Positions 23,094 through 23,165 of a stretch of 35,809 nucleotides of DNA are shown here, in pieces. Numbering within the stretch: position 1 is the stretch's first letter; each line of letters opens with the position of its first letter. This DNA comes from a virus, in the IMG/VR virus record IMGVR_UViG_3300042864_002600, positions 1-35,809 of that record; one strand, written 5' to 3'. The notes beneath the pieces were generated by a model, which made no database searches, had not been told where the DNA came from, and was given only the letters and a program-made list of their open reading frames with translations. Both the position numbers and the translations under genes were made by a program.

Positions 23094-23165
23094 CGCAACT
23101 TAGAGCAGTGGTAGCTCGTCAGGCTCATAACCTGAAGGTCGGAGGTTCGAATCCTTCAGTTGCAA
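23094..23165 (+). tRNA. tRNA-fMet-like initiator tRNA (CAU)
   Basis: A full cloverleaf of 72 nt. Acceptor CGCAACT/AGTTGCA, D stem GAGC/GCTC, anticodon stem TCAGG/CCTGA with loop CTCATAA, five-base variable loop, T stem GGAGG/CCTTC with TTCGAAT loop, discriminator A, CCA not encoded. Position 1 is C and 72 is A, an unpaired end that is the hallmark of bacterial initiator tRNA, and the D stem has A11:U24, also initiator-type. The D-arm to variable-loop region is nearly that of E. coli tRNA-fMet. One deviation: only two of the three G:C pairs at the base of the anticodon stem remain (A29:U41). Confidence 0.93.

Follow-up and report, generated by a model that had tools for sequence, protein, structure and literature searches.

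Introduction

GOLLD RNA (RF02032) assembles into a large cage and is known to occur near phage tRNAs; one example, GOLLD env-38, has been described as lying downstream of a Met-tRNA (PMC12286853). That paper also cites pull-downs in which ribosomes bind GOLLD. Phage initiator tRNAs are likewise known, an annotated tRNA-fMet being carried by Caulobacter phage CcrSC. A third point of comparison is the bacterial rRNA operon, at the start of which boxB, boxA and boxC follow one another, boxA being necessary and sufficient for factor recruitment (PMC10250234). The viral locus analysed here shares with env-38 a phage GOLLD near tRNAs that adjoins a tRNA-Met; it differs in that the tRNA lies 3' of GOLLD, that its initiator type is established and that an rRNA-like boxA leader precedes the pair. 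With CcrSC it shares an initiator-type tRNA in a phage genome, whereas the stretch fetched from CcrSC gave no GOLLD match and has a permuted tmRNA upstream instead.

Materials and methods

tRNA genes were located with ARAGORN and the Rfam tRNA model, and base pairs were read directly from the letters. A11:U24 was taken as one mark of a bacterial initiator, elongators having Y11:R24. Two profiles were used for scoring: an initiator profile made from 147 initiator-type tRNAs of viral loci without GOLLD linkage and an elongator profile made from 31 elongator-type CAU tRNAs. The host initiator of the Bacteroidota was represented by one record of PLSDB (a plasmid collection), NC_022111.1 from Prevotella sp. 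oral taxon 299. The tRNA alignment contained 25 initiator-type sequences, 24 from phages (each adjoining GOLLD) and one from the host.

GOLLD loci were fetched using a GOLLD-core pattern chosen regardless of tRNAs. At least 119 viral loci were obtained, and 92 of those listed had complete flanks. The GOLLD matches of the first four scans formed 32 clusters at 90% identity.

Results and discussion

The window (the whole 35,809-nt stretch of viral DNA) contains a single tRNA, a tRNA-Met(CAU) on the + strand (23094-23165/6), detected by both ARAGORN and the Rfam tRNA model (67.9 bits, E = 6.5e-13 for 23094-23165). Its acceptor stem is CGCAACT/AGTTGCA, with C1xA72 and hence no Watson-Crick pair at 1:72; the D stem GAGC/GCTC gives A11:U24 and the anticodon stem TCAGG/CCTGA gives A29:U41, G30:C40 and G31:C39. 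The anticodon loop is CTCATAA and the discriminator position is A73. The free fold is a cloverleaf with 1:72 open; the folding energy is unremarkable (z = -1.9, with 11 of 200 shuffles equal or better), the MFE alone being no proof of a tRNA. The tRNA scored 66.7 bits on the initiator profile and 35.4 bits on the elongator-type profile (64.4 and 23.8 for the Prevotella initiator). A blastn search against E. coli genomes returned a median of 4 places per genome, the matches listed being tRNA-Met. E. coli has four initiator gene copies, which matches this median.

In the alignment of 25 initiator-type tRNAs, positions 2-7 were paired with 66-71 in 100% of the cells, while 1:72 was paired in 20% and open in 20 of the 25 sequences. 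A11:U24 was present in every sequence, G30:C40 with G31:C39 in 24 of 25 as well as in the window tRNA, and 91 cells carried double-sided (compensatory) pair changes. Because 2-7/66-71 are always paired, 1:72 is mostly open, A11:U24 is invariant and compensatory changes are frequent, the alignment indicates that selection maintains the window tRNA as a cloverleaf whose end pair is open. The first-pass annotation had read it as a CAU tRNA of the bacterial initiator type, and C1xA72, A11:U24, G30:C40, G31:C39 and the profile scores bear this out. Of the two outcomes named there as speaking against that reading, scoring as an elongator was not observed, the initiator profile being clearly preferred, and an isolated acceptor-stem deletion was not found in the alignment, where the open 1:72 recurs and the other acceptor pairs are intact. 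Deletion or decay of the acceptor stem was ruled out, the 1:72 mismatch being a kept feature across the aligned tRNAs.

tRNA genes are frequent phage attachment sites, so the gene could in principle be an integration-site remnant or a decaying tRNA. This is extremely improbable, however, for a complete cloverleaf with its own terminator, with compensatory changes in relatives and with acceptor letters that differ from those of the Prevotella host copy.

The third textbook anticodon-stem pair, G29:C41, is absent from the window tRNA, and the earlier suggestion was that A29:U41 might alter its initiation properties. The Prevotella initiator, reading CGCGGAGTGGAGCAGTTGGTAGCTCGCCAGGCTCATAACCTGGAGG..., likewise has A29:U41. 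In 114 initiator-like viral-contig tRNAs among the matches listed, for which 29:41 was left free, this position was A:U in 50, G:C in 34 and U:A in 30, G29:C41 thus being absent from 80. Since the Prevotella initiator has the same pair and these 80 tRNAs dispense with G29:C41, A29:U41 is, on the letters, an ordinary host-like pair; G29:C41 is not treated as defining for this group, and the proposed effect on initiation was dropped. The window tRNA thus agrees with bacterial initiator tRNA-fMet (Prevotella sp. oral taxon 299, E. coli) in CAU, C1xA72, A11:U24, G30:C40 and G31:C39, and with the Prevotella initiator also in A29:U41 and the anticodon loop. It differs in its own acceptor and T-stem letters, in being phage-borne and adjoining GOLLD, and, from the Prevotella copy, in a D loop one base shorter.

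The likeness in the anticodon arm bears on a possible defence role, in which the phage tRNA would restock initiator destroyed by host tRNases such as VapC. VapC enzymes do cut initiator tRNA, and it has been suggested that phage tRNAs escape such tRNases, but where the anticodon of tRNA-fMet is the target, phages as a rule do not carry this tRNA (PMC10264068). No escape change is seen here, the window tRNA having the same CTCATAA loop and A29:U41 pair as the Prevotella initiator, and a defence role is considered very unlikely.

Two GOLLD-linked tRNAs depart from the common anticodon stem. The tRNA at 1745-1820 of L489 (phage DSS3P8) and the downstream tRNA of L020 have an open 1:72 and A11:U24 without G30:C40/G31:C39; they are natural tests of the role of the anticodon-stem G:C pairs in initiators.

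The first-pass annotation held that most phage tRNA-Met genes are elongators or tRNA-Ile(CAU). Initiator-type genes are not rare but common in phages: 505 phage records match an initiator-type tRNA and that of CcrSC is annotated as such. The idea that many phage mRNAs here are leaderless fared no better. A Bacteroidota -7 box 4 nt before ATG was found at about 4 places, compared with some 32 gene starts examined in the window; about 4 of the starts thus look leaderless, and Bacteroidia use no Shine-Dalgarno pairing anyway (PMC9976891). Leaderless mRNAs were consequently rejected as a strong argument for an extra initiator. An AT-rich TATTTATA-like box lies 10-20 nt before several gene starts of the window (2365, 2693, 7639, 18425, 21571 and 33629, among others); it is possibly a phage promoter.

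The tRNA is the last gene of a unit of structured RNA (Table 1), and the adjacent GOLLD, which is absent from the first-pass annotation, is the more informative finding. The GOLLD match scores above the Rfam gathering cut-off of 150 and extends across the whole 3' domain. In 12 relatives a conserved block leads into this domain from about 22292; it is taken as the putative GOLLD 5' domain. The tRNA begins 17 nt 3' of GOLLD, after the letters ACAT, which also precede the Prevotella host initiator, and is followed by a strong terminator hairpin and T run. No terminator was found between GOLLD and the tRNA in the window scan. Three tandem boxes of the Bacteroidota -7 type lie upstream, two of them with TTTG at N20. 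As these tandem -33/-7 promoters are of the Bacteroidota type, the phage host is probably a member of the Bacteroidota.

Table 1. Features of the GOLLD-tRNA unit, numbered from the first letter of the window.
Feature	Position	Strand	Evidence
Distal -7 box TACATTTG, Bacteroidota type, first of three before GOLLD	21992..21999	+	Pattern scan; kept in most relatives
Promoter TTTG-N20-TATATTTG, Bacteroidota -33/-7	22069..22100	+	Pattern scan; alignment of relatives
Proximal promoter TTTG-N20-TAAATTTG	22168..22199	+	Pattern scan, alignment; sigma-70-like TTGACA/TAAATT also
Small leader hairpin TTCGG-AAATGA-CCGAA, at the place of rRNA boxB	22208..22223	+	Fold
boxA-like rRNA antitermination element GTTCTTTGA	22227..22235	+	Single copy in window, both strands
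Putative GOLLD 5' domain, start approximate (onset of conservation)	22292..22683	+	Alignment of 12 relatives
GOLLD conserved 3' domain, RF02032	22684..23076	+	322.6 bits, E 7.5e-92, model 1-416 (full)
17-nt spacer, ends ACAT before tRNA position 1	23077..23093	+	Letters
Initiator-type tRNA(CAU), anticodon 23126-23128, CCA not encoded	23094..23165	+	ARAGORN, Rfam, fold, alignment, profiles
Intrinsic terminator AGGTGGAGAAATCCACCT + T run, closes GOLLD-tRNA unit	23174..23199	+	z -3.9

Elsewhere the window encodes phage DnaJ and a full-length DnaK (1413-2348 and 31670-33550; Pfam HSP70, E 1.7e-258), and a PAS-domain protein with a histidine-kinase ATPase domain (27304-28896) adjoins a response-regulator domain protein (28904-29335).

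The leader of the unit resembles that of an rRNA operon. The window has a single copy of the word GTTCTTTGA (22227, both strands scanned), which follows the small hairpin. Of 36 GOLLD clusters, 31 have this word ahead of GOLLD; for shuffled words the mean was 0.2 clusters and the highest value 7. Among CAU tRNAs that lack a GOLLD, it was present in 11 of the 166 upstream stretches. In most GOLLD loci the distance from the start of the -7 box to the start of the word is 34-36 nt; in rRNA leaders it is 49 nt (Prevotella) and 52 nt (Bacteroides). The identical word precedes 16S rRNA by 122-176 nt in Prevotella, Bacteroides, Aureibacter and Persicobacter, i.e. in four of seven Bacteroidota rRNA leaders, the exact word being missing from those of Flammeovirga, Chryseobacterium and Flavobacterium. 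The energy of the window hairpin alone is unremarkable (z -0.4); in other GOLLD clusters a hairpin is kept at this position with changed letters. Four alphaproteobacterial phage loci each have one copy of a variant, GCTCTTTGA, which precedes the leading tRNA of the GOLLD array by about 70-130 nt. We read GTTCTTTGA as boxA, a predicted NusB/S10 site; a mention of either boxA or antitermination was not found in the GOLLD structure paper. The unit thus shares with bacterial rRNA operons strong promoters, a small hairpin, a boxA word (identical to that before 16S in the four genera named), a long structured RNA and a tRNA. In the window, by contrast, the large RNA is GOLLD and is phage-encoded, and antitermination is a prediction.

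The pairing of GOLLD with an initiator recurs. Of the 92 fully flanked loci listed, 26 carry an edge tRNA next to GOLLD, in 16 cases downstream of it and in 10 upstream. All 26 edge tRNAs of these listed loci are CAU tRNAs on the GOLLD strand, compared with 13 of 116 other tRNAs of the same loci; the Fisher P of 4e-19 overstates the case because the loci are not independent, many being near-copies. A loose initiator test (1:72 other than G:C, together with U24) was passed by 30 of 30 edge CAU tRNAs and by 0 of 12 scorable distant ones among the listed loci, four of the 30 (the L012 type) being doubtful as they pass the loose test only. The L020 edge tRNA scored alike on the initiator and elongator profiles. 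Judged by these letters, edge tRNAs are nearly all initiators and CAU tRNAs farther away are elongators; L072, L078 and L108 carry both, with the initiator at GOLLD and an elongator Met gene 4-10 kb off. In a tree of 70 GOLLD domains, which includes loci from tRNA scans and is biased toward linked cases, the 'up' label changed at least three times and the 'down' label at least nine times.

The odd CAU tRNA just 3' of GOLLD in L012, L034, L058 and L096 has the stem TCGGT/GCCGA; that of L012, the one scored of this type, was poor on both profiles. A short tRNA-like stretch just 3' of GOLLD in L055 (near 11086) has an acceptor-like pair and a T arm, and no clear anticodon arm. tRNA-like folds were also noted inside the GOLLD 3' domain, at 2925-3000 in L478 and L479, at 2566-2637 in L491, at 2479-2550 in L492 and in L432, with Arg, Leu and Lys calls and one without a call.

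Two simpler accounts of the pairing were weighed against these counts. In one, the tRNA serves chiefly as a handle for processing: cutting by RNase P, or by the 3' tRNA-processing enzymes in loci with the tRNA on the upstream side, would give GOLLD a clean end for the 14-mer cage. The position of the tRNA at either GOLLD edge, within the same promoter-terminator span and, in 'down' loci, 9-23 nt beyond the GOLLD 3' end, fits this. Any tRNA would do for this purpose, however, whereas only CAU tRNAs occupy the edge in the listed loci; sister GOLLDs without a tRNA end in a terminator, and the open 1:72 and A11:U24 are kept though cutting needs neither. Such a handle is therefore judged unlikely as the main role. 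The other account places GOLLD in tRNA islands of phages, with the initiator no more than a common neighbour retained by descent. The known location of GOLLD near tRNA islands (PMC12286853) speaks for it, as do AM24 and Cp1R7A-A1, in which tRNA arrays flank GOLLD with no edge initiator. In Bacteroidota-type loci, on the other hand, the initiator is usually unaccompanied by other tRNAs near GOLLD, whichever side it is on, and the tree shows many gains or losses; the elongator Met genes of the same phages are placed elsewhere. Mere retention by descent is an improbable explanation of this pattern.

The pairing was also found in the 634-kb uncultured phage LR745206.1, in L432, a phage with a tRNA array, and in the cultured roseophages MD18, DSS3_MAL1 and DSS3P8, in which a tmRNA comes after GOLLD. 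It has clear bounds. Since 66 of the 92 fully flanked loci listed have no edge tRNA, GOLLD does not need one, and an initiator at the GOLLD edge was not found in Acinetobacter phages AM24 and Ab15, Mesorhizobium phage Cp1R7A-A1 or Sinorhizobium phage Phosso. Seen from the tRNA side, 6 of 114 sampled viral places with initiator-like tRNAs, among the matches listed, lie in a locus with a GOLLD match, most lying elsewhere. The pairing is thus not universal; these sequences indicate a strong local rule in some phage lineages rather than a law. Nor is one shared transcript general, because several 'up' loci have a separate promoter for GOLLD downstream of the tRNA. Ten phage-database loci with an initiator-like tRNA or a GOLLD match were scanned for known large RNAs, giving GOLLD in one and tmRNA types in two; nothing large was found in the remaining loci. 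A Prevotella Lak phage carries an initiator-like tRNA preceded by similar letters, and no GOLLD lies within 2.5 kb. The lone GOLLD match of the genome-contig scan, in Legionella (L121), was rejected as a chance match, as no tRNA was found there and a six-locus Rfam scan that covered it lists no GOLLD in it.

A tmRNA or permuted tmRNA was observed about 0.1-1 kb from GOLLD in the roseophage loci L478, L479 and L489 and in L401, L026, L044, L118, L011 and L024. In the roseophages it lies directly downstream of GOLLD on the same strand.

On the observed sequence features, arrangement, linkage and leader word, we consider it probable that the window encodes a working initiator tRNA of a phage whose host is probably in the Bacteroidota, made together with GOLLD from an rRNA-operon-like unit. 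The order of this unit is tandem host-type promoters, small hairpin and boxA, GOLLD, initiator tRNA and terminator. The predicted product is a single long untranslated RNA, transcribed by the RNA polymerase of the host, probably aided by NusB/S10 antitermination; RNase P and 3' processing enzymes would release the tRNA from it, thereby also fixing the GOLLD 3' end. As CCA is not encoded, the host CCA-adding enzyme would act before MetRS and formyltransferase yield fMet-tRNA, and the phage tRNA, used on the ribosome, would enlarge the initiator pool during the takeover of translation. Processing, charging, formylation, ribosome use and joint action with GOLLD are predictions of this model.

The boldest step concerns GOLLD itself. 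The repeated, isotype-specific pairing, together with the ribosome pull-down report cited in PMC12286853, suggests that GOLLD may act in the same step as the tRNA, namely initiation. A fuller version, to which we give a rather low probability, is that GOLLD is part of a phage system controlling initiation: it would be made with the initiator tRNA in rRNA-like amounts, and its cage would bind, store or deliver initiator tRNA or initiation complexes. The narrower possibility that the tRNA is simply a partner or cargo of the cage, which would bind or store initiator tRNA or initiation complexes, is held to be slightly less likely still. It draws on the hollow 14-mer formed by GOLLD, on the mention of phage tRNAs as cargo and of the pull-down in PMC12286853, and on the initiator-only linkage, which it predicts; but many GOLLDs have no nearby phage initiator, and for these the initiator of the host would be the only source.

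Provisionally, what is new here is that the edge tRNA is of the initiator type, that it turns up repeatedly, on one or the other side of GOLLD, across many lineages, and that the leader carries the boxA word of host rRNA. GOLLD is a large hollow RNA-only cage, and the initiator-specific pairing with the boxA leader is a clue to a role in translation initiation. Because an initiator tRNA reads start codons only, codon supply is insufficient to explain a phage initiator, and some phage tRNAs may have gained a role beyond codon supply.
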